From an uncultured Pelagibacteraceae bacterium (GTDB lineage: Bacteria; Pseudomonadota; Alphaproteobacteria; Pelagibacterales; Pelagibacteraceae), in NCBI GenBank assembly GCA_902623215.1, contig CACNSS010000001.1:55001-119000 (forward strand): DNA of 64,000 bases, in the 5' to 3' direction. Positions 38,255 to 52,743 of this stretch are shown piece by piece. Position numbers and translations under genes: made by a program. Positions within the stretch are counted from its first letter, which is position 1. Every line of letters starts with the position of its first letter. The notes below the pieces were generated by a model that worked only from the letters and a program-made list of their open reading frames with translations, was not told the origin of the DNA and searched no databases.

Positions 38255-38274
38255 AGTTTATAATTTATCAAACT

Positions 38275-41200
38275 CTAATTAGTTTTAGTTTTGTATTTTA
38301 ATAATTTATTAAAATTATTTATCATCTTAAATTCTTCTAATGCTTTTGGTGGAGCTTCTAATAATTGAGGATTAAGCAACACAATGCTTGAACACTGAGC
38401 TCGAGATACAGCTACATTCAATCTGTTACGGTTAAAAAAGAAAGATTTATCTCTTGGTAAGTTTTCTACATCACTGCTTGTCATACTTATAATCGTAATC
38501 GGTGCTTCTTGTCCTTGAAACCTGTCTATTGTACCGCAGCGGGTACCGTTGGGAAGTCTTTCTAGTAAAAAATTTACTTGGGCATTATACGGAGAAATAA
38601 TTAAAAAATCTGATATCGTTAAAGGTCTTTCTGTTTTGTCTGAATCTATAAATTTTTGACCTAGTAATTTTTTAATAATTTCATCTATTTTTTTAAATTC
38701 AGCCTCACTTGTTTGACTACAATCAGTGTGATCCATTAAAATAGTATGAATACCATCATTATTTATAAAAAAATTTTTTGGGTAATTTACTTTTCTTCTT
38801 TCAGCGGAAATATCAGTTAAAAGTTTATTCTCATAAAAATTTTCAGATATAAAAACATTAATGTTAGGATGCATTCTATATGTTCTTGTTAAAAATATAC
38901 CCATATTAGCAGGTACTGTATCTTTTCCTTCAAGCAAATAATCTAAAACTGAATATCCAGAATAATTTGGGTGATTCCCCTGCGTTGGCTGCCCCAGTTG
39001 AAGTTGATCACCAACTAATACAATATTTTTTGTAATCCCACCTAATGCAATTAAATCTGCTAAGGAAAACTGACTTGCCTCGTCTATAAAAAGATAGTCA
39101 ATCTTGCCTCGATAATACCATGAAGATAAATGATATTTTGTCCCTGAATAAAGTAAAATTTTATTATCATTTAATCCATCAATATATTTCTTTTCATTGC
39201 TCTCTGTTTTAACTAGTTTGCCATCATAAAAACTATCCCCATCATTTGGATTGCCTTTTTTAAGACCTTTAAAAACAAACTTTTGTTTAGTTGATATATT
39301 TTCTACCCTTTCTAATAAGTTGTGAATTACTTTATGAGAGTTTGCGGTAATAGCAATTTTTTTATTTTTCTTTAATAACTCAACTATGGCATTAGCACTA
39401 TGAAATGTTTTACCAGTACCTGGTGGACCTTGTAAAAAAATGTAGCTTGAATTTAATCTTGAAATTATATCAGGAATTTCTTTAATAAAATTTTCAGATT
39501 TAATAATTTTATCACCCGATTTTAAACCATTTATATTTGGTATATCTCTCTTAAGAAAACTTTTTAAAGCTTCATAACCTTTTTTATTTTCTAAAATATT
39601 TTCACAAAAGTCGTATATATTTTTATTTAATTTATCAAAGAGTGAGTGTTGCATTAACTTTTTACCGATCGATAAAATTTTTGGAAGTTGTTTTTTTTCT
39701 CTTGAGATACCTTTTCTTAACACTACAGATCTATTAACCTGATCTAACTCTTTAATTGTACCGGCACTGTCGTCTCTATCTGGATCGTTATTATTAGCGA
39801 TGATAACTCCATCTCCTTTCTTTAATTTATATTCTTGCGGCGGGAACAAAAATTTGTATTCAAAACTTCTCTTATCTTGAAATTGTGAAACTAATTTCAT
39901 ATTTCCTATACACTCATTTTCATCAATTAACTCTTCGTGAGACAAATGTTTTCTATCAAAAAATTCACGCCAAGATGGTTTCATTTCCCTAGAGTAATAT
40001 CCTATTATATCTGAAAGTAATTTAACTATTGGTAGATCTTTCAACTTTGTTTCATTGAATCTTTTTTGGTATTCCAACAACTTTTCCTCAAAGGGCCTAA
40101 GTTCGATATGTTCCTTTTCAGGGACATGCCACTTTGTATCTTCTGGTTTAATTTTTAATAACCAGTTTCTTAACTTAAAAGTGCTTACACAATCTTGTTT
40201 ATTATATTCTTCAATTTCATTTAAAAGTTTTTTATCTTTTGTCTCCATCCATTGAATATAATACTCTTCAGAAACATCACCTTTTCTTACATCTCCACTT
40301 CTTTCAAATGCGTAATATTTTTCAATTTCTTTAATTGAGTAACTTTTTTGAGAAACATATATAGCTTGTTTCACTACTCTAAATAGATCAACAAACCGCT
40401 CGAGATTTAAATAATGATCATAATCAACTTGAAAAACTTTGTGTAAAGACGTCAAGCGCTCAAGTGCTGTGATTTCGTATGAGGCGTAATGATAAATTTT
40501 AGCATTAGGATATTTTTTAAAATGATTATTGGTAAATGAAAAAAAATCAATTACACTTTGCTTTTCTTCTTTTCTATTATGAGCCCAGAAAGGTTTGAAT
40601 ATTTTCTTTCCATTCTCCTCATAAAATACTCCAAAGAGGTATTCTAACTTTCCAGAAAAAATGTGATCTTGCACAGATTCTATATCAAAGAATAGATCAC
40701 AATCTGATGGCTTGGGTAATAAATTAAATCCTTTTTTTAAATAGAGATTCTCTTCATTAATTTTAAATATTGGATATCCTTTCTTCTCAGCTTCTATCTG
40801 TAATTTTGCCTGTTTTATTATTTTAATCTTTGCTTCTTCTCTTAGTCCCTCTATCTTTTTTTTTGGATCTAATTTTGCTAAATCATCATAATTTTTAATC
40901 CCTACTTTATTTAGTTTCTTAGTATTTTTTTTATTATTGCCCAAAACTTGATTCAAATGTCTATTTTTAACCCATTCTTCTGAACAATTTTCTTGCCAAT
41001 CGCACAGAGCACAAAATGAACATTTTTCAGGTTTAGTTTTATTTAATTCGTTTAAAATAAAATCTTCATAAGAATTTTTATGTAATAAAAAGGTATCATA
41101 AACTTCTCTAAGTTTAATTGCTTGTTTAGTTTTGTCTTTTAATAAAATATAAAAATTATTAGGTAATACTCCCTGAGTCTCTTTCAATAAAAAAGAATAT

Positions 41201-41643
41201 AGGCCTACTTGATAAATGTGGTCTCCTTTAACTCTTGCAGAATGTTTAGTATCAGTAACCTCATAACTCCAATTGCCTAAATTAGATTTTAATTCTGTAT
41301 TAATTTCTAAAAAATCTAATTCTCCACTCCATTTATCCGACTCTAGCCACCCCCCATAAATTAACTCATATCCATGTTTTAAAGCTCTAATGGTTTCTTT
41401 AATTTTTTCTTTTTTAGATAAGCTTTTTAAATCTTTAATATTTTTTATTTTTTTATATTTTTTACTTAATTCTTTAAAATAGTTTAATTCATGAGTAAAA
41501 CCTTTTTTTAATCTTAATTTGTCAGAATTTGTTTTTTCAGTTCGCTTTAAACTTAATTTTTTTTCATTAAATTCGTTAGTAATTATATGCTTACAATTAA
41601 CAAACCTTGTAAGCATTGTTGGTGAGTAAAAATTTTTATTCAA
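38275..41643 (-). CDS. TM0106-type RecB-like nuclease fused to exonuclease and SF1 helicase
   Basis: A 1122-aa three-part protein. The N-terminal part (about 1-230) is a RecB/Cas4-like PD-(D/E)XK nuclease: GELDFLE, YEVTDTK and a Cys cluster CSFCALCDWQENC that may hold an Fe-S cluster. The middle (about 310-490) is a DEDD-type exonuclease domain (FFDIES, ASYEITALERL, NKQDCVSTFKLR). The C-terminal part (about 730-1110) is an Upf1/Dna2-like SF1 helicase: QGPPGTGKT, LFIDEASQF, GDQLQLGQP, YRMHPN, DRFQGQEAP and LNVAVSRAQ. It probably processes DNA ends or aberrant DNA/RNA. It converges on folC and sits next to trxA. Confidence 0.92.
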   Translation of the reverse strand: MNKNFYSPTMLTRFVNCKHIITNEFNEKKLSLKRTEKTNSDKLRLKKGFTHELNYFKELSKKYKKIKNIKDLKSLSKKEKIKETIRALKHGYELIYGGWLESDKWSGELDFLEINTELKSNLGNWSYEVTDTKHSARVKGDHIYQVGLYSFLLKETQGVLPNNFYILLKDKTKQAIKLREVYDTFLLHKNSYEDFILNELNKTKPEKCSFCALCDWQENCSEEWVKNRHLNQVLGNNKKNTKKLNKVGIKNYDDLAKLDPKKKIEGLREEAKIKIIKQAKLQIEAEKKGYPIFKINEENLYLKKGFNLLPKPSDCDLFFDIESVQDHIFSGKLEYLFGVFYEENGKKIFKPFWAHNRKEEKQSVIDFFSFTNNHFKKYPNAKIYHYASYEITALERLTSLHKVFQVDYDHYLNLERFVDLFRVVKQAIYVSQKSYSIKEIEKYYAFERSGDVRKGDVSEEYYIQWMETKDKKLLNEIEEYNKQDCVSTFKLRNWLLKIKPEDTKWHVPEKEHIELRPFEEKLLEYQKRFNETKLKDLPIVKLLSDIIGYYSREMKPSWREFFDRKHLSHEELIDENECIGNMKLVSQFQDKRSFEYKFLFPPQEYKLKKGDGVIIANNNDPDRDDSAGTIKELDQVNRSVVLRKGISREKKQLPKILSIGKKLMQHSLFDKLNKNIYDFCENILENKKGYEALKSFLKRDIPNINGLKSGDKIIKSENFIKEIPDIISRLNSSYIFLQGPPGTGKTFHSANAIVELLKKNKKIAITANSHKVIHNLLERVENISTKQKFVFKGLKKGNPNDGDSFYDGKLVKTESNEKKYIDGLNDNKILLYSGTKYHLSSWYYRGKIDYLFIDEASQFSLADLIALGGITKNIVLVGDQLQLGQPTQGNHPNYSGYSVLDYLLEGKDTVPANMGIFLTRTYRMHPNINVFISENFYENKLLTDISAERRKVNYPKNFFINNDGIHTILMDHTDCSQTSEAEFKKIDEIIKKLLGQKFIDSDKTERPLTISDFLIISPYNAQVNFLLERLPNGTRCGTIDRFQGQEAPITIISMTSSDVENLPRDKSFFFNRNRLNVAVSRAQCSSIVLLNPQLLEAPPKALEEFKMINNFNKLLKYKTKTN

Positions 41644-41725
41644 TTTTAGTCTTTTTATTATTTGATCGATCTTAAATGTTTAAATTTATACTGAAAGAAA
41701 ATTTTTTATTAAATTCAGTTAAAAA

Positions 41726-42049
41726 TTACTTACTGGAAATTGAATTATCTAAAAATTCTTTAACTTTAGCAGGGCCTGGAAAACCTACGAGTCTATCGAC
41801 CTCCACGCCTTTACGAAAAATAATTGTACTTGGCACACCTCTGATACCCATAGCGCTGCCAGTATTAATTGCGCCCTCCTCAACGTCAGCGTAAAAAAAT
41901 TTGCATGACGGATAACTTTCGCTAAATTGTTCAAGTACAGGAGATAATTGCTTACAGGGTGCGCACCATGACGCTGAGAACTGCACGCAAATTACTTCCT
42001 CTTTGGATATTTTATCTTCCCAATCTGAATCTTGAAATGTATGAATCAT
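41726..42049 (-). CDS. trxA: Thioredoxin
   Basis: A small cytoplasmic disulfide reductase of 107 aa with the active site WCAPC (Cys29, Cys32), the cis-Pro in IRGVPST and the following FRKGVEVDRLVG. It lies after folC in the alphaproteobacterial folC-trxA neighbourhood. The spacer 41644-41725 separates it from the helicase gene. The family has many roles; general thiol reduction is the safe call. Confidence 0.93.
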   Translation of the reverse strand: MIHTFQDSDWEDKISKEEVICVQFSASWCAPCKQLSPVLEQFSESYPSCKFFYADVEEGAINTGSAMGIRGVPSTIIFRKGVEVDRLVGFPGPAKVKEFLDNSISSK

Positions 42050-42166
42050 ATTTAGTTATTAAATTTTTAAATTTACTTTGTCAATTAAGATAATTGTTTA
42101 ATTTCAAATTTTTTTAAATTTTTATTCATGTCGAATGTTTCTTCATTTTTGATATAAGGAATTGAT

Positions 42167-42943
42167 ATGTTTATTGCAGATAAAAATTTTCCTTGGTCAT
42201 CTAAATATAACCCCGAGTCAGACAAACCATTTATTATGTCTCGTTCTAAGATAGATCTATACTTAAAATGTAAAAGATGTGCCTATCTAGATATGCGACT
42301 AGGAATAAAAGGTCCAAAACCCTTCCCTTATAATTTAAATTCTCGTATTGATTATTTATTAAAAGTTGAACACGATATTGCTCGAGAAAAGAAAGAAAAA
42401 ACAAAGTATTTAGAAGAATGTAATATAGATGCTATTCCGTTTAGTCATCCAGAATTAGATGTTTGGAGGGAGCCTTTTAAAGCTGCAAGGTATCACCATA
42501 AAGATACAAATATAGTTGTAGCTGGATCTGTAGATGATCTTTGGGAAGATAATGGAAGTAAAAAAATTCATATAGTTGATTATAAATCAACACATACTGA
42601 AAATTTTGACAGATTAAAAAACTTCGATGCCCCTTATTTGATTGGTTATAAAAGACAGGCTGAAATTTATGCTTGGATTTTATCTAAGTTAGGTCTCGAT
42701 ATTCATAAAACAAGTTATTTTTTATATGTAAATGCTACTTTAAAGCAAGAAACATTCAATAATAAACTAGACTTTGAGTATGCATTAATTCCCTATGAAA
42801 TGAGAGACTTTAATTGGGTTGAAGATACTATTATAGAAATCAAAAACTTTTTAGAAACGAATAAAATTCCAGCAGCTACAAACGATTGTGAACTTTGCAA
42901 ATACATGCATAAGTTTTTTGAATTTATTAAAAAGAAAAATTAA
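42167..42943 (+). CDS. PD-(D/E)XK nuclease, RecB/Cas4-like
   Basis: A 258-aa stand-alone nuclease domain. The motif GSVDDLWED (Asp123/124) followed by VDYKS (Asp138, Lys140) and RQAEIYAW (Gln164) matches the RecB/Cas4-type PD-(D/E)XK site with its QxxxY motif. CxxC pairs near both ends (Cys35/38 and Cys241/244) could hold an Fe-S cluster or zinc, as in Cas4 or AddB; that is inference. It is divergent from trxA and near the helicase-nuclease, suggesting a joint role in DNA end processing. Confidence 0.85.
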   Translation: MFIADKNFPWSSKYNPESDKPFIMSRSKIDLYLKCKRCAYLDMRLGIKGPKPFPYNLNSRIDYLLKVEHDIAREKKEKTKYLEECNIDAIPFSHPELDVWREPFKAARYHHKDTNIVVAGSVDDLWEDNGSKKIHIVDYKSTHTENFDRLKNFDAPYLIGYKRQAEIYAWILSKLGLDIHKTSYFLYVNATLKQETFNNKLDFEYALIPYEMRDFNWVEDTIIEIKNFLETNKIPAATNDCELCKYMHKFFEFIKKKN

Positions 42944-42959
42944 AATTTATTATTTTCCT

Positions 42960-43538
42960 TTAAGCAATCTTATTTAATTTATCTAGTTTAGAAGATCGCT
43001 TATCAGTTAATACACTTTGAACTAATTTTCGATTACAATTTACTCCTAATAACTCTGCAACTTTTCTTGCAATACTAGTTTTAGTTTCACATTTGCTGTT
43101 TTTTTCATCTCTTATTTTTGATTTATTTTTTTCACCCACAGCTGCCTCTATATTTTTTTGATATTCTGCTGCACTTGGGGCTTTGTCAAAAATTTCTAAT
43201 ATCTTTTCTTTTTTTTTTTCTAAAATTTTCCTACCTAATAATGAGTTATTATTATTTTTCATAGATGTTAGTATTTCTTCAATTTTAGTGTCTGTAGGAA
43301 TTTTATATATCGTAGGTGTTGAACCTTCTTTCCCAACCCTTTTTAATTTTGCCATAATAATATTATTATTATTTGCAAATCTTGGTAGGTTATCTGCCCT
43401 ATCAATTAAAATTTTTCTTCTATTAAGAAAATTAATTAATTCATCAGCATTTAAATAACCACTGGGCTTTTCCTCATATAAATAACCCTCATCTTTTTTG
43501 GTTTTTAAATCATATGGATTACTATTTTTTTCACTCAT
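42960..43538 (-). CDS. Hypothetical protein, last gene of GHKL-protease operon
   Basis: I do not recognise this 192-aa protein. It is charged and soluble, with no membrane segment. An N-terminal segment (about 27-55) with GYLNADELINFLNRRKI looks helical and may be a small binding module. The middle is lysine-rich, and the C-terminus has TSIARKVAELLGVNCNRK, which could be a helix-turn-helix but lacks a clear consensus. It lies 15 bp downstream of rmuC and is probably co-transcribed with it. The nuclease gene on the other side converges on it. Confidence 0.65.
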   Translation of the reverse strand: MSEKNSNPYDLKTKKDEGYLYEEKPSGYLNADELINFLNRRKILIDRADNLPRFANNNNIIMAKLKRVGKEGSTPTIYKIPTDTKIEEILTSMKNNNNSLLGRKILEKKKEKILEIFDKAPSAAEYQKNIEAAVGEKNKSKIRDEKNSKCETKTSIARKVAELLGVNCNRKLVQSVLTDKRSSKLDKLNKIA

Positions 43539-43553
43539 TTGTCCTCCTTAATG

Positions 43554-44687
43554 CTAATTTGGTTTATTAATATCCTCAGGATCTTCAACAAAATTTACCA
43601 TTTTATCTTTATCATCAGTTTTAACCAACTGATTTACATCTAGTCCATGATCATCTTTTAGTTTTATTATTTTAGACTCTAAACCTTGATTTGAACCATA
43701 ACTGGTATGAACTACCTCTGTTAAAGATTTTGCATGAGTATTATGACTTGATATCAATGTTTTTAAACTTTTTTTTAGAGTATTATATTTATTAAAAATA
43801 TCTTCAGCTTTACCAATAATTGTATCTATTTGAGATATTTGTTTTTCTTGGTTTTTTATTGAAGTAATAGTTGAAATTAAACTCATTATACTTATCGGAC
43901 CAGCTAACATAATATTTTTTTCAAAGCATAAATCTAAAATGTCGTCTGACTTTTCAAGTATACTCAAATAGCAACTATCGAATGGTAAAAATAAAACTAC
44001 ATATTGAAAAGAATTTAAATTATGAATTTTCAAGTAATCTTTATTAGACAGTTGCTCAATATGTGTTTTTACTGACTCTATATGTTTTTTTAAATGCAGC
44101 TCTCTTGAGGCTTCATCTTTAGCATTAGTAAAGTCCTGAAAACTCTTCAAAGAAACCTTGCAGTCAATTACGATATGATCGGCGACAGGTCCCTTTATAT
44201 TTATAATAAAATCTGGATTAACAGTTTTTTTATTTCCAGTCTCTAGATCAGTAAGTGTATGCCCTTTTCTCTCGTCAAAATCACCATCTTCTTCACTTAA
44301 ACCATTTTTTTCTAGCAAGCTTCGAAGTTTCTTTTCATTAAATCTTCCTTGATATTTAGCGTCACCAACTAATTTTTCATGAAAATTTTTAAAAATTGAA
44401 TGCTGGTTTTTATGTTCATTAAGTATAAGATTGCTTTGATCTTTAAAATCCTCCACGCTTTTTTTGTTTAATGCTAATTGCTCCTTATCTTTTTTTAAAT
44501 CAGATAAATATTTTTCGGTAATAGTAATTTTATCTAGTAACTTATCATTTTCGTTTTTTAGATTTAATATTTCAGGATTGTTAGGGTCAATAGTATTTTT
44601 TTTTTTAAGAGAATAATAAAAATACAACAATAATGCCGCGATAATTAAAGATAATACGATGACAGAAATTATAAGTGAAATTATCAT
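43554..44687 (-). CDS. rmuC: DNA recombination protein RmuC homologue
   Basis: Family linked to limiting DNA inversions and rearrangements, with a nuclease-like fold. It has one N-terminal membrane segment (about 3-27), a long coiled coil (about 35-110), then the RmuC core with GRFNEKKLRSLLEKNGL, VNPDFIINI, VIDCKVSLKSFQDF and VVLFLPFD. Asp and the Lys of DCK match the PD-(D/E)XK-like active site. The 377 aa are within the family range. It is 14 bp downstream of the GHKL-protease gene, so it appears in an operon rather than alone as usual. Confidence 0.9.
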   Translation of the reverse strand: MIISLIISVIVLSLIIAALLLYFYYSLKKKNTIDPNNPEILNLKNENDKLLDKITITEKYLSDLKKDKEQLALNKKSVEDFKDQSNLILNEHKNQHSIFKNFHEKLVGDAKYQGRFNEKKLRSLLEKNGLSEEDGDFDERKGHTLTDLETGNKKTVNPDFIINIKGPVADHIVIDCKVSLKSFQDFTNAKDEASRELHLKKHIESVKTHIEQLSNKDYLKIHNLNSFQYVVLFLPFDSCYLSILEKSDDILDLCFEKNIMLAGPISIMSLISTITSIKNQEKQISQIDTIIGKAEDIFNKYNTLKKSLKTLISSHNTHAKSLTEVVHTSYGSNQGLESKIIKLKDDHGLDVNQLVKTDDKDKMVNFVEDPEDINKPN

Positions 44688-44701
44688 AAAATATTTATAT
44701 C

Positions 44702-46294
44702 CTAATTAATAAATTTGTTCCATTGTTTAGAATATTTACTGACAGCGGCATTATTATCAATACAAGCTGATATAAGATAAGTTAAGCAGTCAGAAAATTC
44801 TCTGGAACCATCATCATTACCTGTAGCGTGGCTCAGCTCATGCAAAAATACAGAGAACATCTTTCCAAAACTTTGCTTAAATAAATCTGCGTGCAAATAT
44901 ACTATCTTAGAATTATAATCATAATCATTTTTAATTTGTCCCAATAATTCTTTACAAAATATTTTTTTGAACTTTAAATTATATAAAGATTCATCTTCGT
45001 CATTTTCATTATTAAAAAGTTTTGCAAAAGCGGGACTTACTCCTTTAGCTGCCTCAAAACAAAAATTAATAGCTTCTTGTTCTTTAGATGTTAAGTCTGC
45101 AGTCTTTTTATTTTTTATTCTTTTTTCTGCATTGGCTTTTGATCTAATAAAACTCTCTAATGAGCTCATAACACCAAAATTATTAAAGTAACTTGGAAGC
45201 ATTATCTTGTTATTATTTTTCATTTTCTTATCACGACTTCTAATATAATTTTGCGTTTTAGTAGAAAACCAATCGTGATAAGAAATTTCACGAGAATAAG
45301 TGTACCTGCTTTCGCTTAAATACTCATTGCCAAACAAGTCTTTTAAAGATTTATCATCCTTCAATCGTCCATAAGTAGCTGAGGCTAGAGCACTTAATAG
45401 TAAATGCCCTTTAGGCCAAATTTCTTTTGAACTTTCTAAAATATATCGGATAGCGGGATTATTCTTCATTGCTCCGTAATAGAAGCCGCTTCTTGCAAAT
45501 ATTGAATAAAATGTACTTTGTAATTTTGCATCAAACGCTTGACGATCTCGATCTATTTTTACTTTTTTTTCTAATGCAGCATATTTCTTATCAATAGAAA
45601 TAATTACTGGAATTCCTTTAATATCAACTCTCTTTAAACCTTTATAAAAACCAAACCCGTCTTTAGTTTTTGATTTGTAAATTGTTATATCGTTATATGA
45701 ATGTAACACTTCTCCAATTAATGGGTTTGAAGAATAAAAAAAGTTTCTTAACCCAAATTCAAATGCCTTTTTAAGTTTTTTATCTAATGTGTTAATAATA
45801 AAGTAATTCCCTTTTAACTTATTAATTTTAAAATAATTATAAACTAAAGCTCTAAGACCATCTGTGCCTGGAACCTCTTTACCAACAGAAACTATTAAAC
45901 ATTGGTCTCCGGAAATCATTATTGGATTTGTAATTCCCATTCTTGCCATATCCGATAGACACTTCTTTACACCTTCCCCATGTGCACCAATCATATTTTC
46001 TTGTTCGGTTTTCGATGAGCCAATATAATATAGTTTTTCTAAAGAATATTCATTTGGCGCATATACTTTAATTAAATCATTATCTGTTGAGATTTTAATT
46101 TGATTTATATCCATTTTTGCTGAAACAACTCCATCTCTAGCATTTTGTAAAATATCTCTAGATATTTTCTCATGATCCCAGATCTCTTCTCCCCAGCTGG
46201 TTGTCACGGATGACTCGATTGATTTAATGTGTTGTGCTTCTGTCACCTCATTTAATTCTAAAATTATGTCTTTTAACTTTTTAACATTATCCAT
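44702..46294 (-). CDS. GHKL ATPase fused to metzincin-type metalloprotease
   Basis: A 530-aa protein with an unusual pairing. The N-terminal part looks like a GHKL (Hsp90/MutL/MORC-type) ATPase: N-box RDILQNARDG (Asn51, Asp54), a degenerate G1 region around 80-90, then YYIGSSKT and the G2 loop GAHGEG (103-108). The C-terminus has HELSHATGNDD (485-495), matching HExxHxxGxxD of metzincin proteases, with acidic residues following. The middle (about 200-440) is unrecognised. It overlaps the preceding small gene by 8 bp and is followed by rmuC. An ATP-controlled protease is the natural inference; the substrate is unknown. Confidence 0.8.
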   Translation of the reverse strand: MDNVKKLKDIILELNEVTEAQHIKSIESSVTTSWGEEIWDHEKISRDILQNARDGVVSAKMDINQIKISTDNDLIKVYAPNEYSLEKLYYIGSSKTEQENMIGAHGEGVKKCLSDMARMGITNPIMISGDQCLIVSVGKEVPGTDGLRALVYNYFKINKLKGNYFIINTLDKKLKKAFEFGLRNFFYSSNPLIGEVLHSYNDITIYKSKTKDGFGFYKGLKRVDIKGIPVIISIDKKYAALEKKVKIDRDRQAFDAKLQSTFYSIFARSGFYYGAMKNNPAIRYILESSKEIWPKGHLLLSALASATYGRLKDDKSLKDLFGNEYLSESRYTYSREISYHDWFSTKTQNYIRSRDKKMKNNNKIMLPSYFNNFGVMSSLESFIRSKANAEKRIKNKKTADLTSKEQEAINFCFEAAKGVSPAFAKLFNNENDEDESLYNLKFKKIFCKELLGQIKNDYDYNSKIVYLHADLFKQSFGKMFSVFLHELSHATGNDDGSREFSDCLTYLISACIDNNAAVSKYSKQWNKFIN

Positions 46295-46592
46295 TATTTC
46301 CTCCTATTTTTTTTATATTATTAATCTTTTCAATTTCCTCTCTTAAAACTTCTATTTCAGTACATCCTTTAATAAATGTTCTTTTTTGTCTTTGTCTTTT
46401 CAAAAATCTTAAAACATTAATTGGAAAATAGTAAATATCACAAAACAAACTTTCTAGTTTTCTATCTTGATAGTATTTTAATTTTGCTTTTTCTTGAATT
46501 TGTTGATGTTTAAAATATTCTAAACACTCTTTTTGCCAAGTTAGCATATACTGTAATCTTTCTTCCAAAATATATTTAAAATTTTTGTTCAT
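46287..46592 (-). CDS. Hypothetical protein, small, helical
   Basis: An unrecognised 101-aa protein, basic and rich in aromatic residues and Gln/Lys, and predicted mostly helical by eye. There is no membrane segment. A FLKRQRQKRTF stretch is strongly basic and might bind nucleic acid. It lies 3 bp after the WGR gene and overlaps the GHKL-protease gene by 8 bp, with GGAGG within its own last codons likely serving as that gene's ribosome site. Translational coupling suggests the two proteins act together. Confidence 0.65.
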   Translation of the reverse strand: MNKNFKYILEERLQYMLTWQKECLEYFKHQQIQEKAKLKYYQDRKLESLFCDIYYFPINVLRFLKRQRQKRTFIKGCTEIEVLREEIEKINNIKKIGGNNG

Positions 46593-46595
46593 ATT

Positions 46596-46808
46596 TTAAT
46601 TTTCTACATATCCTTTCGAAGTTTTCTCTCTTATTTTCTTTTCACAATATTTTTTTGCCTGATCTTTGGTAGCAAAACTTTTTTCATTTTCAGCTGGATT
46701 TTGGATACCTATTCTTCCATATTTTACCAAAACCTTATTTGCATTTAGGCTGATTTCCCAAAACTTATGTGAATTTGTTCCTAAATCTTTATATTCAAAA
46801 TGTCTCAT
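46596..46808 (-). CDS. WGR-domain protein, single domain
   Basis: A stand-alone WGR domain of about 70 aa, recognisable from MRHFEYKD, NSHKFWEIS, VKYGRIG (the WGR motif with Tyr for Trp) and the final ATKDQAKKYCEKKIREKTSKGY. WGR domains occur in poly(ADP-ribose) polymerases and bacterial regulators and are thought to bind nucleic acids. I prefer the ATG at 46808, preceded by AAAGGGA, because family members begin near MRxFE; an ATG at 46823 would abut the upstream stop. It sits inside the GHKL-protease operon. Confidence 0.8.
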   Translation of the reverse strand: MRHFEYKDLGTNSHKFWEISLNANKVLVKYGRIGIQNPAENEKSFATKDQAKKYCEKKIREKTSKGYVEN

Positions 46809-46823
46809 ATTTTTCCCTTTCAT

Positions 46824-47228
46824 TTAATGTAACGTTTTATTTTTATTAGCCTCTATCCTTCTTCCGAAGTCGTCTTGCCCATCATCAGATGTAGATGTCC
46901 ATTCATCTAATGAATTCATAAATTCTTTATGGTGTTCTAATAATTGTCTCGAAACTGATCTCGTATAATATTTAAAAGCTGGATAACTCATTTTAATCAT
47001 CATTTTTTGCATTAACCTGTAATGAAACAAATAAAAGCAATGATCCCTGTCGATATTTTCTCGATTTGTTTTTTCATCAAACGCCTCAACAAGTTCTTTG
47101 GCGTAAGAATCCATTTTGTTCCAAATATCTTGGTTCGTTTCTATTTTTTGCTCTTTTAATGACTTGGTTTTGAACTCTAAAATCTTGCTTTTATTTTTCT
47201 TTGTTCTTTTATCTTTAAAATCGCTCAT
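46824..47228 (-). CDS. Hypothetical protein, first gene of GHKL-protease operon
   Basis: An unrecognised 134-aa protein. The first 30 residues are very Lys-rich. The centre has conserved-looking HCFYLFHYRLMQKMMIKM and YTRSVSRQLLEHHKEFM helices, and the C-terminus is acidic (TSTSDDGQDDFGRR). There is no membrane segment or enzyme motif. It is the first gene of the leftward operon, reading from the operator-bearing spacer 47229-47372, so it could be a regulator or an effector, but nothing in the sequence decides this. Confidence 0.65.
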   Translation of the reverse strand: MSDFKDKRTKKNKSKILEFKTKSLKEQKIETNQDIWNKMDSYAKELVEAFDEKTNRENIDRDHCFYLFHYRLMQKMMIKMSYPAFKYYTRSVSRQLLEHHKEFMNSLDEWTSTSDDGQDDFGRRIEANKNKTLH

Positions 47229-47271
47229 AAAAGCCTTTTAACACGCTAAAAATAGAAAGTCAACTTTTTTT

Positions 47272-47326
47272 TTGTCATTTGACAATATTTTTTATAAATA
47301 TATCTTGTTTTATTGTCATTAGACTA
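47272..47326. promoter_or_regulatory. Palindromic operator-like pair in divergent spacer
   Basis: Positions 47272-47285 hold a perfect palindrome, TTGTCA-TT-TGACAA. A second, imperfect copy, TTGTCATTAGACTA, occupies 47313-47326. Their centres are 41 bp apart, about four helical turns, so a protein could bind both on the same face. The 144-bp spacer lies between the leftward GHKL-protease operon and the rightward coiled-coil/exonuclease I pair, so one regulator could control both. No obvious helix-turn-helix gene is adjacent. Confidence 0.5.
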
Positions 47327-47372
47327 TATATATAAAGTGTAAAAATGAATCGTAACAAGAAAATTAATAAAT

Positions 47373-48770
47373 ATGCAGAAAAATAGAACAGAATCTCAAA
47401 AAAATGGTGAATTACTCTCATCTATCTTAGAGAAAGCCAACATAAGCCAAAGATTGTGCTCTATAAATATGGGTGAAAATGATGCCTTTTTAACGAACTT
47501 TATTTACAGATCCCCATTAAAATTCTCTAGAGACTTTTCATATAAATTTTTATCAAGCATTTACCATTTTGTATTAAGGGATTCTCAAAAAAGAGCTACG
47601 GAAAAATTTGATGAAATAATAAATGATCAAAACATATTGGATTTAAATATCAATAAAAAATTATTAATTCCAGCTTTGGAAAGACACACACTCGCAATAA
47701 TTAATATTAACGCTGATGTATTTGAAAAAGATGATGAACAGATAATTGAGAACTATATTCAAGAAATTTATCCAGAAACATTTGAAAATTATAAAAACTT
47801 CTTAAGAAAATTGGATTATCAAAGAACGGGACTAAAAAATATATCTAATGTTCAGCAAATATATGAACAGGAACATCAAGATACTTTAGAAATTTTATCT
47901 TCAGAAGAAATAGATATGCTAAATGGTTTCTCAGAATTTGAAATTCAAATGGAATCTACTAATAATTTCTTTTACATCTGCGAAAATTTAAGAACCAAAA
48001 TTATTCCATCATTTTATTCCCCTACAGACTATAAAGAAATAAAAATGGATTATTTTAATAAAGGAGCATTCTTAATTAGACGTAAAGAAATTAATCAACT
48101 CAAAAACAATAATACAATTGGAGGACAAATAGTTTGGAAATCAGGAAAATTTAATTTTGAAGCTGAAAAAAAACAAAAAAGCAGATGGTTCTTCGGCAGA
48201 AAAGAAAAAGTAAAAGAGGATGACGAAAAAATGCTAAAAGAAATAGATGAAATTAAAAGAGAGCATGAAAAACAAATGGCTTTTATTGCTGAAATAGAGA
48301 GAGAGAAAGAGAAAATTATTAACGAAACTAAAAGACATATAGAACAACAAAATAAAGAGGACTTTAAACAAATTTCTAAAATGGTTGATGAAACCTACTA
48401 CAAAGAAAAAAATAAACAAAATGATGATTATGAAGTTCCAGAGTTCTTGAAAAAACAAGAAGAACAATTAAAAAAATGGAAAAAATTAGCTAGCAATGAT
48501 AAATTAATAGCAGAAAGTAATAATTCTTATTTTACCGAAGAGTTCCAAAAAAAATTTTTAAAAGAGCGTGAAGAACAACTTCTAGAAATGAGAAAATTAT
48601 TAAAAAAAGGAAAAAATATTCGTTTACACGAAATAGATCAGTTTATAAATAGATATGGGAATACAGAGGAAACAAGAGATTTTATTAACAGCATTGCAGG
48701 TTTGAAATTATTCAAAGAAGATAATTATAAAAACTTACTACTGGACAAGGAAGAAAAAAAATTAGCTTAA
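47373..48770 (+). CDS. Hypothetical protein with coiled coil
   Basis: An unrecognised 465-aa protein. The N-terminal 250 residues look globular. Residues about 270-420 are highly charged with long Lys/Glu/Gln helices (EIKREHEKQMAFIAEIEREK), probably a coiled coil. A basic aromatic patch, KSRWFFGRKEK, precedes it. There is no signal peptide or membrane segment. It is 4 bp upstream of the exonuclease I gene, so the two are likely co-translated. It diverges from the GHKL-protease operon. Confidence 0.7.
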   Translation: MQKNRTESQKNGELLSSILEKANISQRLCSINMGENDAFLTNFIYRSPLKFSRDFSYKFLSSIYHFVLRDSQKRATEKFDEIINDQNILDLNINKKLLIPALERHTLAIININADVFEKDDEQIIENYIQEIYPETFENYKNFLRKLDYQRTGLKNISNVQQIYEQEHQDTLEILSSEEIDMLNGFSEFEIQMESTNNFFYICENLRTKIIPSFYSPTDYKEIKMDYFNKGAFLIRRKEINQLKNNNTIGGQIVWKSGKFNFEAEKKQKSRWFFGRKEKVKEDDEKMLKEIDEIKREHEKQMAFIAEIEREKEKIINETKRHIEQQNKEDFKQISKMVDETYYKEKNKQNDDYEVPEFLKKQEEQLKKWKKLASNDKLIAESNNSYFTEEFQKKFLKEREEQLLEMRKLLKKGKNIRLHEIDQFINRYGNTEETRDFINSIAGLKLFKEDNYKNLLLDKEEKKLA

Positions 48771-48774
48771 AATT

Positions 48775-50220
48775 ATGGCACTATTTACTTATTTTGATTG
48801 TGAAAGTGATGCTGGTGCTGCACAAAAAGCAACTTGTCTTTCTGTAGCTGCTGTAACAGTTGATGAAAATTTTAAAATTGTAAACCAGTGGAAGATAAAT
48901 TCAAGATTTAGAGCCTCTCGTGCATTTGAAGTTGATGCGATGCTTGCTCACAATATTCCAGTTGAAGTAATTGAAAACGAAAAATTATCAAATAGTGAGC
49001 TCGTGAATGAATGGGAAAAAAGATTTAAAGCTCTAGCCGAAAGAGGAACTATCTTTGTTGGATATAATTCAATGAATTATGACAATATACTTCTTCAAAA
49101 CAGCTTATATATCAATCTAAAATGGCCTTATATAACTAATAAAGAACAATTTGATCTACTTCCCGCAATTAGGGCAGCTAGTGTATTCGCACCTGGTGCA
49201 CTTAATTATGAGCTTAATGAAAAAGGCAACACTTCATTTCGTTTACAATCAATGCTGTCCGCAAATAATATAAAAACTAAAGGCGCCCATGATAGTTTAT
49301 ATGACACGATCGCAACTAAGGATCTTGCAGAAAAATTATTTGAAAAAGCTCCCGATGTATTTAATGCATCAATAGCATTAAGAAAAAAAGCAGATGTACT
49401 TCCTAAAATTAAAGAAGGTATATTTTGTTGGCATGAAGCTTACTTTAAAGCAAAGATATATTGTGGGATGTACTTAGGTAATACTATTTTTCCTGGATGG
49501 TATTATTTGTATGATTTACGAAAAAATCCTGAAGATGTTTTAAAGTTAGACAGGGATGGTTTAAAAGAAAGTTTGAAAGGTAGTCCAAAATATATTCGTA
49601 CATGCAAAAGCAACCGTGCACCAATTATAATGAATAGTGAGTTTGCATTATTAGATGACGAATATAAAGCCCTAGGTATGAACGAAATTAAAAAAAGATA
49701 TAATTTACTAAAAAAAAATAAAGAAGAGTTAGCTGCAAAAATAAGAGATATTGTCAAAGAACAATACGAGGAGAGACAAGAATTTAACCAAGAAGAATTA
49801 CAACCAGAAGAAAAAATTTATTCGTTAACTGGTGAATTGAGCAATGAGGAACGAAATCTTATGAACCAATTTAATCAAGATAACTCTCCTAAAGAAAAAA
49901 AGAGAATTTTTAATCTTTTTAAAAGAAATGATATCAAAGTTTTAGCAGAAATGAAATTATTTGATGATTATGATGGTAATGAAGATAAATTTTGTCAAAT
50001 ATTAACAAAGAGAGATTTTAAAAGAGTAAAAAAAAGAATTGCTAAAAATATTTTAGATATGTCGGACAAACCAAGTCCGTTTATAAAAATTCCTGCTCAG
50101 CAAGCTCGGCTAGATACTCTTAAAATTGTAGCAGAAAAAAATGAGGATCATGAGAAAATGGAGCAGCTGGATAGCCTAGACAGATACCTTGAAAAAATGA
50201 AGCTTAAATTTGCTTCTTAA
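48775..50220 (+). CDS. sbcB: Exonuclease I family (SbcB-like), DEDDh
   Basis: Single-strand 3'-5' exonuclease used in recombination and mismatch repair. The DEDDh site is complete: Asp8 and Glu10 (YFDCES), Asp103 (NSMNYDNIL), His172 and Asp177 (AHDSLYD). The rest matches the ExoI middle and C-terminal regions, including KADVLP-type and KSNRAP segments, and 481 aa fits E. coli ExoI (about 475). It follows the coiled-coil gene by 4 bp. Its pairing with that gene and its divergence from the GHKL-protease operon are unusual for ExoI. Confidence 0.88.
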   Translation: MALFTYFDCESDAGAAQKATCLSVAAVTVDENFKIVNQWKINSRFRASRAFEVDAMLAHNIPVEVIENEKLSNSELVNEWEKRFKALAERGTIFVGYNSMNYDNILLQNSLYINLKWPYITNKEQFDLLPAIRAASVFAPGALNYELNEKGNTSFRLQSMLSANNIKTKGAHDSLYDTIATKDLAEKLFEKAPDVFNASIALRKKADVLPKIKEGIFCWHEAYFKAKIYCGMYLGNTIFPGWYYLYDLRKNPEDVLKLDRDGLKESLKGSPKYIRTCKSNRAPIIMNSEFALLDDEYKALGMNEIKKRYNLLKKNKEELAAKIRDIVKEQYEERQEFNQEELQPEEKIYSLTGELSNEERNLMNQFNQDNSPKEKKRIFNLFKRNDIKVLAEMKLFDDYDGNEDKFCQILTKRDFKRVKKRIAKNILDMSDKPSPFIKIPAQQARLDTLKIVAEKNEDHEKMEQLDSLDRYLEKMKLKFAS

Positions 50221-50258
50221 AATATTTTACAATGATAACAAAAAAAATATACCGGACC

Positions 50259-50396
50259 TTACTTCTTTTCTTTTTTATTATTATCCTTAAACGTTTTCAT
50301 CTCTTTATAAAGTTTAGCAAAATCTTTATGAGATCCTTTTTTCTTTCCAAGTTCTCTAAACTTTTTGGTCCATTCATTACGATCTTTTTTTTCCAT
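50259..50396 (-). CDS. Small basic hypothetical protein
   Basis: A 45-aa open frame starting ATG at 50396 and ending TAA at 50259. It encodes MEKKDRNEWTKKFRELGKKK and continues with a HKDFAKLYKEMKTFK segment. It is very Lys-rich and helical. It sits between exonuclease I and the divergent hypothetical gene at 50422. The aromatic residues in the middle argue for a real small protein, but confidence is limited. Confidence 0.45.
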   Translation of the reverse strand: MEKKDRNEWTKKFRELGKKKGSHKDFAKLYKEMKTFKDNNKKEKK

Positions 50397-50421
50397 ATTA
50401 AATAAGTATAATTTAATAAAA

Positions 50422-50886
50422 ATGAACAATAAAGACTATAACAGAAACCCAAAGGGTACAAATCAGTGGAAATTAAGAACTGACAAAGAACTTCAAGATA
50501 TAATTAATAGTAAACCCCGAAATTGGACAAAAAAAGATTTTAGAGGTGAAGGTAAACTGAATAAAAAAAAACTTATGACCAGAAAGGAATCTGATAGAAA
50601 AACTCTTAAATTTTATCAAACTGGTAGGACATATTTAAGAAATTTAAAAGATCATTTTAATAATTCTACTGAAGAAAGTATTAAAGAATTTCAAAAAGGT
50701 GAAATAGATTTCGAAACACTTAAGAATAGATCTTCAACTATTAAATGGAGAAACAAAATGTCTGAAAATCAGCGTAAAATTTATGACAAAAAAATATATG
50801 CAGAGATAAAAAATAACGAAGAAAGATTAGAAGAAAAAAGAAAAAGACAAAAAAAATGGTATAATCAGCAAAAAGATTTAAAGTAA
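50422..50886 (+). CDS. Hypothetical protein, highly basic
   Basis: An unrecognised 154-aa protein. I start it at the ATG at 50422 (MNNKDYNRNPKG) rather than a non-ATG start at 50365 that overlaps the small opposite-strand frame. Features are NQWKLRTDKELQ near the start, many Arg/Lys residues and a C-terminal helix of Glu/Arg/Lys ending KWYNQQKDLK. It is probably a nucleic-acid-associated protein, which is inference. It is followed 2 bp later by a small membrane protein. Confidence 0.6.
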   Translation: MNNKDYNRNPKGTNQWKLRTDKELQDIINSKPRNWTKKDFRGEGKLNKKKLMTRKESDRKTLKFYQTGRTYLRNLKDHFNNSTEESIKEFQKGEIDFETLKNRSSTIKWRNKMSENQRKIYDKKIYAEIKNNEERLEEKRKRQKKWYNQQKDLK

Positions 50887-50888
50887 AA

Positions 50889-51020
50889 ATGGATTTATTA
50901 TTTTTATTTAAAATTATATTTCTTCTAGGAGCATTAGTTGCTCTCTATGCTATAATTAGAAACTTAGATATTATTAAAATTATACTTCGTTATTGGTTTA
51001 ATTTAATATTTAGAAAGTAA
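50889..51020 (+). CDS. Small membrane protein
   Basis: A 43-aa frame starting at ATG 50889, two bases after the preceding stop. It encodes a single hydrophobic segment (about residues 3-24, LLFLFKIIFLLGALVALYAI) followed by a basic, aromatic tail ending FRK. The TAA stop is 18 bp inside the 3' end of hisG on the other strand. The tight coupling and clean membrane pattern favour a real gene, function unknown. Confidence 0.5.
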   Translation: MDLLFLFKIIFLLGALVALYAIIRNLDIIKIILRYWFNLIFRK

Positions 51021-51692
51021 TTTTAACAATTTAAGTAATTTTTTATTTCGAAGAGATGATTTTCCAACCATCATACAAAGTTCTGATTTTAAAATATATC
51101 CGTCATTGACTATCCTTAGATTGTTAGCAGCTAACGTTGATCCAGTACTAGTGATATCGGTGACGATTTCAGAATTACCTGTATATGGTGCTATCTCAGT
51201 ACTTCCAATTGATTTAACAATAGAAAATTGGGTTACTCCTTTACTATAAAAAAATTCTCTAGTTAGGTTTGGATACTTAGTGGCAACTCTTAATCTCTTC
51301 TTTTTTTTATCTTTAAATTCAAATGCTACTTCCTCAAGATCAGCCATACTGAAAATATCAATAAAATCTTCAGGAATCGCCACAACAAGCGTAGCTTGTC
51401 CATAAGGATATTTTTTATAAACCTTAATCTTATTTTGAATATTAATTTCACTTTCTTTTAATAAATCTAATCCAGAGAAACCGGCATCAAGCGATTTATC
51501 AGCAAGACGTGAAATTATTTCACGTGCGTGGGAATATATAATTTGAAAATCTTTTTTTCCCTCAATTGAACCAAATAAATCACGATCTCCTCTACTTGAG
51601 ATTAATTTTAATTTATTTTTTTTGAAAATATTTAATACAAATTTCCTCAATCGTCCTTTTGCTGGGATGCCAATTTTAATTAAATCTTTCAT
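51003..51692 (-). CDS. hisG: ATP phosphoribosyltransferase, short form
   Basis: First step of histidine synthesis, PRPP plus ATP. At 229 aa it is the short form that lacks the C-terminal regulatory domain and needs HisZ. The start ATG at 51692 gives MKDLIKIGIPAKGRL, the correct family N-terminus; the longer frame would overlap hisZ. The SRGDRDLF and TDITSTGSTLAANNLRI motifs, the latter binding PRPP phosphate, are intact. It follows hisZ by 4 bp. Confidence 0.94.
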   Translation of the reverse strand: MKDLIKIGIPAKGRLRKFVLNIFKKNKLKLISSRGDRDLFGSIEGKKDFQIIYSHAREIISRLADKSLDAGFSGLDLLKESEINIQNKIKVYKKYPYGQATLVVAIPEDFIDIFSMADLEEVAFEFKDKKKKRLRVATKYPNLTREFFYSKGVTQFSIVKSIGSTEIAPYTGNSEIVTDITSTGSTLAANNLRIVNDGYILKSELCMMVGKSSLRNKKLLKLLKLLSKY

Positions 51693-51696
51693 AAAA

Positions 51697-52743
51697 TTAT
51701 AAATTAAAAGCTGCTCCAACTGCTGGGACCTGTTTTTTTGAACCAAGGTCAAAAATTAATCTATCGTAGCGACCTCCTGCGCACAAATTAATACTTTTAG
51801 ACTTGGATTTAATGTCTATTTTAAATACCATGCCAGTATAATATTCAAGCTGCCTGCCAAAAGAAGCTGAAAACACCACATTTAAATTTGATACTTTGTT
51901 TGAGGAAATTGGAAAATATTTTTGGTCTACAACAAGATTAATTTTGTTTTTTTTGAAAAATTTATTTAGTTCTTTTGCGGCACTATTAATTGGACATTTA
52001 ATCTTTAAAAAAGATCTTATAATTGCTGAAACTTTCTTACCCTTACTGGCCCTTCTAGGATCATTCATTTTTACATCAAATCTTTTTAAAATTTCTCCTA
52101 TAGACCTTCCAGCAATCATCGTTGATGGATCTTTTTTTAATAAATCTAAATATTTTTTTTGGTCTACTGCTACTGTTGTAGGGTCGATGTCTGCATTGGT
52201 TTCTAGTCGTTTTAATAAATCATTAAAATAATCCTCTCGCCAGAAATGTCTTAATAATCTTAATTTCCATCTAGTTGGTAGCTCTAATTTTTGAACTAAT
52301 AATTTAAAAATTTCAACGTTACCAATTGTTAACGTTCCTGATGAATATTTTATATTTTGCAGAGCTTTCAAAGAAGTATTGATGATTTCCTTATCATCAT
52401 TTTTTTCATCCTTACTTCCTAAGACTTCAAAGCCAATTTGGTTTCTAATTATAGAGTTTTTTTTATTTTGTGATTTTCTGTAGGCTTGGCCGCTATAAAA
52501 AATTTTCTCCTTGCTTTTGAAATTATTTTCTAAATATCTAAGACATGAAACAATAGTTAAATCAGGTCTAAGGCATAACTCTTTGCCATCATAATCAATG
52601 AATGAAAATATGAATTTTCTAAAGCTTTCACCTGATCTTTGAACAATATGATCAGCCTCTATAACTGAAGGTAAATCAATATATTTAAATCCTTTTGACT
52701 TTACTGATCTAAGGATATTTTCAGATAAATTTTTTGATTTCAT
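51697..52743 (-). CDS. hisZ: ATP phosphoribosyltransferase regulatory subunit
   Basis: A HisRS-like protein with no charging activity that activates short HisG and carries histidine feedback. It has class II synthetase-like segments: YIDLPSVIEADH, LCLRPDLTIVSCLRYL and the final CAGGRYDRLI. The 348 aa are typical. It overlaps hisS by 23 bp and is followed by hisG, giving the cluster hisS-hisZ-hisG. Confidence 0.93.
   Translation of the reverse strand: MKSKNLSENILRSVKSKGFKYIDLPSVIEADHIVQRSGESFRKFIFSFIDYDGKELCLRPDLTIVSCLRYLENNFKSKEKIFYSGQAYRKSQNKKNSIIRNQIGFEVLGSKDEKNDDKEIINTSLKALQNIKYSSGTLTIGNVEIFKLLVQKLELPTRWKLRLLRHFWREDYFNDLLKRLETNADIDPTTVAVDQKKYLDLLKKDPSTMIAGRSIGEILKRFDVKMNDPRRASKGKKVSAIIRSFLKIKCPINSAAKELNKFFKKNKINLVVDQKYFPISSNKVSNLNVVFSASFGRQLEYYTGMVFKIDIKSKSKSINLCAGGRYDRLIFDLGSKKQVPAVGAAFNL

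Follow-up and report, generated by a model that had tools for sequence, protein, structure and literature searches.

The 64-kb window (the whole stretch of 64,000 nucleotides analysed here) contains a gene for a 530-aa protein in which a predicted GHKL fold is followed, on the same chain, by a predicted zincin domain. This fusion is a real family, patchily spread among unrelated bacteria. GHKL switches drive nucleases, kinases and topoisomerases, and both parts of the protein, as well as the plan of a GHKL switch joined to an effector, are known already; what is new is that the switch is joined to a zincin, that the G1 box is missing and that no family model was shown to match. The best-supported picture, drawn by analogy with the effectors of paraMORC3, paraMORC4 and VcSduA, is that of a protease that would be switched by its GHKL part.

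Results

The fusion gene

The gene consists of one intact ORF of 530 aa at 44702-46294 on the minus strand; read on the plus strand, these positions contain stop codons in large number. An initial annotation, made from the letters of the window, had described this 530-aa protein; we confirmed that the ORF is intact and placed it on the minus strand. The motifs that had been named were all present at the expected residues of the protein (P0001), with Asn51 and Asp54 of the N-box lying within LQNARDG, GAHGEG at residues 103-108 and HELSHATGNDD at residues 485-495. The features of the gene are as follows.

44702..46294, minus strand: GHKL-zincin fusion protein, 530 aa, P0001 (intact ORF, homologues, dN/dS)
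45734..46237, minus strand: predicted GHKL (Bergerat-type) nucleotide-binding domain, about residues 20-187 (AlphaFold and fold comparison)
46133..46147, minus strand: N-box QNARD, residues 50-54, with the acid D47 four residues ahead of Asn51
45971..45988, minus strand: G2 loop GAHGEG, residues 103-108 (conservation)
45515..45733, minus strand: probable S5-like transducer, roughly residues 188-260 and containing DRDR at 248-251 (boundaries taken from predicted secondary structure)
45110..45514, minus strand: mainly helical middle region, residues 261-395 (AlphaFold model)
44705..45109, minus strand: predicted zincin (HExxH metallopeptidase) domain, residues 396-530 (separate model, VIA)
44789..44842, minus strand: zinc motif HELSHATGNDDGSREFSD, residues 485-502 (conservation)

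Of the 75 frames in the window that extend from stop to stop over 100 aa or more, 1 contained HExxH. When P0001 was shuffled 20,000 times, HExxH appeared in 156 of the shuffled sequences and HExxHxxGxxD in none. Comparison of P0001 with its relatives in G022, G137, G072 and G191 gave whole-gene dN/dS values of 0.029, 0.061, 0.050 and 0.169, respectively, and values of 0.055, 0.060, 0.081 and 0.316 for the zincin part, those for G072 and G191 being unreliable because dS exceeded 1. Every part of the fusion gene is under purifying selection, and the GHKL and zincin halves are both retained. The GC content of the window is 29%; the host genome assembly measures 960 kb and is 78% complete, and well-assembled relatives in the order have genomes of 1.0-1.5 Mb. 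Genomes this small and AT-rich, in a genus of very large size, point to Pelagibacterales/SAR11.

The N-terminal half has a GHKL fold and lacks the G1 box

The AlphaFold model of the full protein, computed with a 41-row alignment of the family, had a mean pLDDT of 87.9 and a pTM of 0.68, with residues 91-104 below 50. With VIA, the whole model matched HtpG (2ior; Z 11.3 over 140 residues, rmsd 2.9), and the best PDB matches in Foldseek were TRAP1 (3.9e-6), Hsp90 and MORC2 (4.0e-4). The GHKL fold that had been proposed for the N-terminus is therefore borne out, as far as the predicted model goes, by HtpG, TRAP1 and MORC2. Residues Q50, N51, D54, G92, G103, G106, E107 and G108 were conserved in 41/41 rows of the family alignment, and so was the GxxGxG pattern of a GHKL G2 loop. 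All 41 rows also had D or E at residue 47, four residues before the N-box Asn, which is the position of the catalytic Glu in Hsp90 and MutL. A transducer-like part was present in the model, the region up to about residue 271 being common to phage-type relatives (see below), and R249 and R251 in this part were again found in 41/41 rows; according to the available text of PMC2292703, a basic residue is usual at this place in GHKL-S5 proteins.

The G1 box (DxGxG), searched for between the N-box and G2, was found in 0 of the 41 family rows. ATP use is therefore not certain, and the protein is better described as a GHKL-fold protein of an off-pattern branch than as a canonical GHKL ATPase. Thus, of the initial description as a GHKL ATPase like MORC and Hsp90, the fold, the N-box and G2 stood, while the G1 box expected of such an enzyme was absent.

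Family libraries hardly recognized the protein. P0001 matched no Pfam or NCBIfam family above cut-off, its weak matches being to the DUF4344 metallopeptidase (E 0.027, residues 428-491) and to a sacsin ATP-binding model (0.15); DUF4263, the Shedu nuclease, was absent from its Pfam scan. PADLOC gave no match for P0001, nor for a second family member, P0004. Among the 41 members, seven touched the NCBIfam sacsin model at E ≤0.01 (best 9e-6; model cut-off 50 bits), one touched Pfam HATPase_c and one HATPase_c_3. The phage profile phrog_6077 matched P0001 (E 0.0022, residues 39-137), P0002 (4e-7), the L012 member (1.3e-9) and the L079 protein (5.9e-60), in all cases within the GHKL half. As these scans brought out no Pfam or NCBIfam model that demonstrably covers the family above cut-off, and PADLOC gave nothing for the two members tried, the family is probably missed by current annotation and defence scans.

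The C-terminal domain is a predicted zincin and not a metzincin

Modelled alone, the C-terminal 135 residues had a pLDDT of 88.7 and a pTM of 0.83. The best solved structures in VIA were Wss1 (5xbn, Z 8.6), abylysin (4jiu, 8.1), Spartan (6mdw, 7.9) and selecase (7.9); Wss1/SprT-type matches covered a range of Z 7.6-8.6, tied with abylysin and selecase, and a Z below 8 may reflect a common arrangement. Foldseek gave no match for the domain at E ≤0.001, the best being abylysin (8.4e-3, probability 1.00), followed by Wss1 and selecase. When the whole model was used, abylysin came at rank 37 in Foldseek (E 0.076), and the best 50 rows of VIA were zincin-free and thus uninformative on the C-terminal domain. 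Sequence comparison of the domain with Wss1, Spartan and the minigluzincins yielded nothing significant (best E 0.34; Wss1 and Spartan at E of at least 0.54). HExxH is located on a predicted helix (residues 476-491). Because of this conserved motif on a helix and of the fold matches, we assign the C-terminal domain to the zincins; the zincin fold proposed at the outset around residues 485-499 is supported, in the predicted model, by the matches with Wss1, abylysin and Spartan.

H485 and E486 were conserved in 40/41 rows, and H489 and D495 in 39/41. The pattern HExxHxxG(x)xD was intact in 39/41 rows and broken in 2, and in a 39-row alignment from which these two rows had been left out beforehand the H, E, H, G and D were invariant. 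The spacing typical of metzincins, HExxHxxGxxD, was found in 4/41 rows (P0001, L014, L016 and L018), P0001 and L016 being compatible with both spacings, while 35/41 rows had only the form that is one residue shorter. The fit to the metzincin signature is therefore local. Furthermore, P0001 has no Met after residue 485 that could provide a Met-turn. The earlier label of metzincin was consequently abandoned, since the spacing is not a feature of the family, P0001 has no Met-turn, and the solved structures that match the domain best are those of Wss1, abylysin, Spartan and selecase.

The family is patchily distributed

The fusion was detected in 8/297 genomes of the order, both by BLAST and with a profile. 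A ninth match, in G130, was dropped because it was confined to 49 positions of an ORF of 437 aa, which we read as an aminotransferase. We also dropped a short match in G465, located in an ORF that reads as a membrane zinc-peptidase-like protein. In G232, one stop counted in the match precedes the ATG of the ORF that was used.

A scan of a genome collection, with two distant members as queries, revealed relatives at 48 loci, in Magnetococcales, Desulfobacteraceae, Chromatiaceae, Accumulibacter, Clostridia, Atopobiaceae, Fibrobacter, Spirochaetes and Latescibacterota, among others. Both sites were intact in one frame at 32 of these loci (34 full-length rows, of which 32 have an intact zinc motif), representing eight phylum labels and one viral contig. 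The search for homologues that keep both domains, which had been suggested as a check, was thus positive. The other 16 loci (contig ends, broken frames, distant partial matches) are uninformative on the fusion and stood outside the conservation counts. In the class of the Magnetococcales member, 1/48 genomes had the fusion. In a tree, the SAR11-like sequences grouped together (100/100), beside members from Treponema and Latescibacterota (100/99). The eight phylum labels required 9 changes, for a minimum of 7, which is no proof of transfer; some of the branches are long.

Phage-type relatives without HExxH aligned with the GHKL and transducer half (hhalign probability 96.5, E 7.8e-10, residues 29-271), and the phage relatives examined had the GHKL half only. 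Viral-sequence scans with P0001, alignment A2 or L098 gave nothing. Alignment A3 retrieved one viral contig, L079, which encodes a complete fusion with the motif HEAAHIYGGDG, and a scan with the L079 protein retrieved itself and L085, which has no HExxH. About 1 kb upstream of its fusion, L079 encodes a second GHKL protein (L079:5794-7896, 700 aa, HATPase_c_3). No match covering 80% of a query was found in 50,697 phage and 72,556 plasmid records, searched with P0001 and P0004 (both sets), L090 (plasmids) and L098 and L131 (phages); P0004 gave 13 partial matches, four of which were read to the C-terminus.

Two loci, L108 and L117, each contain two neighbouring family genes. In either pair, one copy (L108, 5977-7533, minus strand; L117, 1520-3079, plus strand) combines a broken zinc motif with an intact N-box and G2, and is adjacent to an intact partner. 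The presence of one broken-motif copy per pair suggests that family proteins form mixed dimers in some bacteria.

The fusion gene lies in a tight run with WGR and rmuC

In the window, the fusion gene belongs to a run of six minus-strand genes going from 47228 to 42960, with gaps of 0, 3, -8, 14 and 15 bp. This tight spacing indicates that they probably form one transcript. The other genes of the run are listed here.

46824..47228, minus strand: small protein sm134, first gene of the run (sub-threshold HEPN match, E 0.042)
46596..46823, minus strand: WGR-domain protein, 75 aa (Pfam WGR 1.3e-18)
46287..46592, minus strand: small protein sm101, sharing 8 bp with the start of the fusion gene (no Pfam match)
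43554..44687, minus strand: RmuC-family nuclease, 377 aa, 14 bp downstream of the fusion (Pfam RmuC 3.5e-46)
42960..43538, minus strand: small protein F6sm, 192 aa, 15 bp downstream of rmuC (no family above cut-off)

With its hydrophobic N-terminus, RmuC is probably anchored in the membrane. It was the sole RmuC match in the host genome, and a single match was found in each of 20 genomes. The fusion and rmuC were co-stranded in 8/8 loci of the order and directly adjacent in 6/8, the exceptions having an ARPP-1 gene (L012) or an ARPP-1 gene and F6sm (L013) in between; the ARPP-1 domain gene overlaps the end of the fusion gene (L012:2176-3126, L013:11209-12186). The WGR gene was found in 6/8 fusion genomes versus 0/21 without the fusion (Fisher p 5.9e-5, relatedness ignored). 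This association comes from few independent lineages, as the fusion proteins of G000, G022, G137 and G072 are 88-98% identical; it fails in G043 and G081, and G232 has its WGR gene on the opposite strand, at a distance of about 3 kb. The arrangement WGR-sm101-fusion was shared by 5/8 fusion loci. The sm134 gene is present at the locus also in genomes without the fusion, and in G079 and G116 it is directly followed by rmuC, while in the window WGR, sm101 and the fusion are inserted between the two.

The run occupies a variable slot between core genes

Further genes surround the run in its slot, which lies between trxA and hisG.

38275..41643, minus strand: protein labelled here 'Dna2-like' (Cas4-like, RNase_H_2 and SF1-type helicase parts), variable slot gene
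41726..42049, minus strand: thioredoxin (trxA), edge of the slot (ORF reading; same place in relatives)
42167..42943, plus strand: Cas4/RecB-like PD-(D/E)XK protein, variable slot gene (Pfam PDDEXK_1 1.2e-7; PADLOC Cas4 4.8e-11)
47373..48770, plus strand: unknown 465-aa protein u465, variable slot gene
48775..50220, plus strand: SbcB-like exonuclease I, core gene (NCBIfam exodeoxyribonuclease I 3.7e-29, below cut-off)

The folC-trxA-sbcB-rmuC-hisG slot (window 36998-54121; L065-L078) holds different DNA-processing and conflict genes from one genome to another. The Dna2-like protein matched Pfam RNase_H_2 (1.6e-28), AAA_12 (6.5e-26) and Cas_Cas4 (8.2e-5); its gene is in two frames in G079 (L066:7536-10879) and in one frame in G116 (L070). 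Elsewhere, the slot contained an Hsp70-like gene (by reading) with PDZ/TerB, a Dna2-like helicase-nuclease or Z1 genes, and in G012 an LRR-like protein with DUF2130. In G266, which has no fusion, an M48/SprT-like peptidase gene (L071:5958-7091) directly adjoins rmuC. Seven of 14 fusion-free loci examined in the order had the arrangement folC-trxA-sbcB-PD(D/E)XK-rmuC-hisG, the PD-(D/E)XK label being based on one member, and the others varied. The window SbcB was matched by BLAST in 275/297 genomes; G043 had no such match, yet one of its ORFs clustered with SbcB. Since sbcB and rmuC are widespread at the locus, we consider them as resident nucleases and the fusion as an insert beside rmuC. The idea that SbcB and RmuC are parts of a dedicated cassette was rejected, both being core at the locus.

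PADLOC models RTasRmuC and RTasSbcB matched the core rmuC (1.6e-38) and sbcB (2.4e-38). Such matches, with no reverse transcriptase among the nearby proteins scanned, could cause false DRT calls in this lineage; a DRT system was rejected here, as Pfam scans of nine locus proteins and of the scanned flanking genes showed no reverse transcriptase. Replacement of AddAB by the gene set was also rejected, because the addA model gave matches in 32/33 genomes with and without the fusion. None of these matches, which lie in frames of 675-755 aa and which we take to be UvrD-type helicases, was above cut-off, and the one genome without a match, G000, is 78% complete.

In the other phyla, no cluster of neighbouring ORFs recurred in more than 4 loci. 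A scan of 118 of the 254 neighbour ORFs, with no control set, gave at most 4/118 per Pfam family among the matches listed, and, for PADLOC, again among the matches listed, PDC-S01 (4), RmrA (2), pVip (2) and a Fic-type protein (1). No strong defence-island signal emerged in these phyla, the matches being scattered among the 118/254 ORFs scanned. HATPase_c_3 and Z1 genes lie about 5 kb from the fusion in L016, and in L018 the distance to the Z1 and DUF4420 genes is about 4 kb; these two were also the only loci, of those looked at, with genes of restriction-modification type nearby.

Discussion

Prediction and conservation support the two folds and their fusion, with a conserved N-box, G2 loop, D/E47, R249/R251 and HExxH, as well as the tight gene run and the patchy distribution. 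The initial annotation knew of no described system built on such a fusion, and we found no description of one in the open-licence literature; an account in a subscription journal or a preprint is possible.

The likeness of the C-terminal domain to Wss1/Spartan and to the minigluzincins abylysin and selecase is one of predicted zincin fold, and we know of no GHKL module in any of these proteins. The phage family phrog_6077, which is of unknown function and which some Vibrio phages list as 'histidine kinase-like ATPase', shares the GHKL and transducer core, with the N-box, G2 and a DRDR-type motif as in the fusion; it differs in that the five members aligned (from three phages, one Pseudomonas plasmid and one viral contig) have 358-389 aa and no HExxH. 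Proteins of the T4 rIIA group, which have an N-terminal GHKL part and a variable C-terminus, were among the BFVD fold matches of the fusion; those named rIIA among the matches listed are longer (618-1049 aa), and the available text of PMC7824862 reports no zincin in this group.

The Shedu-type protein VcSduA, an accessory GHKL ATPase with anti-phage activity, also has an N-terminal switch and a C-terminal enzyme on one chain, and in the model of its authors it forms an entwined dimer, the middle domain of which resembles a clamp; according to the available text of PMC12137116, however, its effector is a PD-(D/E)XK nuclease and motifs I-IV are reported, versus a missing G1 in the fusion. MORC and paraMORC1-5 combine GHKL with an S5-type module, varied C-terminal extensions and a patchy spread (PMC2292703, available text). 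These extensions are a nuclease (paraMORC3), a TIR domain (paraMORC4) or HxH in the same source, and the words 'peptidase' and 'protease' are absent from its main text on these proteins. Shield II, as described in the available text of PMC10270631, resembles the locus in that RmuC is encoded alongside a metallopeptidase-like gene, the product of which, ShdB, interacts with the RmuC protein ShdA and lowers its level. The difference is that ShdB is M15-like, with no mention of GHKL in that text, and that RmuC is a core gene at the fusion locus.

Our preferred interpretation, which we hold tentatively and a little short of an even chance, is that the fusion is a GHKL-switched zincin protease acting in an accessory response to phage or plasmid conflict or to DNA damage. 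We rank it first because the gene is accessory wherever this could be counted, with repair of DNA-protein crosslinks (DPC) and control of RmuC coming next. In the mechanism that we infer, an N-terminal Hsp90/MORC-type nucleotide switch with its transducer would be connected through the helical middle to a zinc-binding C-terminal effector. Nucleotide binding, together with a signal linked to DNA, be it broken ends, an invading molecule or a complex bound to DNA, would make two copies close at their GHKL and transducer parts. This closure would expose or align the zincin domains, and these would in turn cleave a single partner protein or a small number of them, after which hydrolysis would reset the switch. 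Candidate substrates are RmuC, phage proteins and proteins located on DNA that is damaged or foreign. In the host bacterium, the protease may act jointly with the WGR protein, a possible DNA-end sensor, and with the RmuC nuclease. ATP gating and the sensing of DNA or damage, as hypothesised at the outset, would fit the run with WGR and RmuC and the GHKL proteins with known effectors, although the missing G1 box makes nucleotide use less certain. The genes of restriction-modification type 4-5 kb away in L016 and L018 also speak for this interpretation. Against it, no neighbour cluster recurs in more than 4 loci of other phyla, the WGR association comes from few independent lineages, and, SbcB and RmuC being core at the locus, the proximity of the fusion to them may reflect no more than insertion at a hot spot.

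A Wss1/Spartan-like DPC protease, with the GHKL part as a DNA-dependent switch and with RmuC, SbcB and the Cas4-like nucleases trimming the DNA, appears unlikely. It would account for the presence of Wss1 (Z 8.6) and Spartan (7.9) among the best solved matches of the zincin domain, for the DNA-processing neighbours and for the M48/SprT-like peptidase beside RmuC in the fusion-free G266. However, abylysin and selecase, which to our knowledge are not DPC proteases, are tied within 1 Z; a repair role also predicts wider retention than 8/297 genomes, and clustering identified no recurring DNA-processing partner in other phyla. The co-stranded RmuC (8/8 loci of the order) and the different zincin next to RmuC in G266 would fit a protease with control over its neighbour, the RmuC nuclease, or under joint control with it, as proposed for ShdB, which interacts with ShdA and reduces its level (PMC10270631, available text). 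Yet RmuC is single-copy and core here with or without the fusion, so that adjacency is maybe positional, and family loci elsewhere showed no ORF clustering with RmuC (by clustering only). We regard control of RmuC as no more probable than DPC repair.

The absence of the G1 box, and the paired copies of L108 and L117 with a broken zinc motif next to an intact N-box and G2, would also agree with a GHKL protein of the chaperone or scaffold kind, its zincin fold being a module for binding that has little if any protease activity. We find this improbable in view of the zinc motif, intact in 39/41 rows, and of the low dN/dS of the zincin part (0.06-0.32). Least probable of all would be a phage-derived or mobile gene that serves counter-defence, kin to the phage GHKL proteins of phrog_6077 and the rIIA group: the GHKL half is indeed common to phrog_6077-type proteins (probability 96.5, E 7.8e-10), viral contig L079 carries a full fusion and rIIA is found among the BFVD fold matches, but none of the 50,697 phage or 72,556 plasmid records gave a match over 80% of a query.

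Returning to the GHKL-switched protease, a bolder form of this interpretation, possible though rather doubtful, is that it represents an undescribed class of effector in immunity or genome guarding. Such a clamp protease, gated by nucleotide and DNA, would sense broken or invading DNA, cut proteins on or near it and, in SAR11-like bacteria, license or limit RmuC. If this is true, proteolysis would be added to the known outputs of GHKL switches (nuclease, TIR). A bacterial GHKL switch driving a protease would widen this set of outputs with a single-gene, easily tested system found across phyla. For the marine lineage itself, the sbcB-rmuC region emerges as a slot whose DNA-processing and conflict genes vary.
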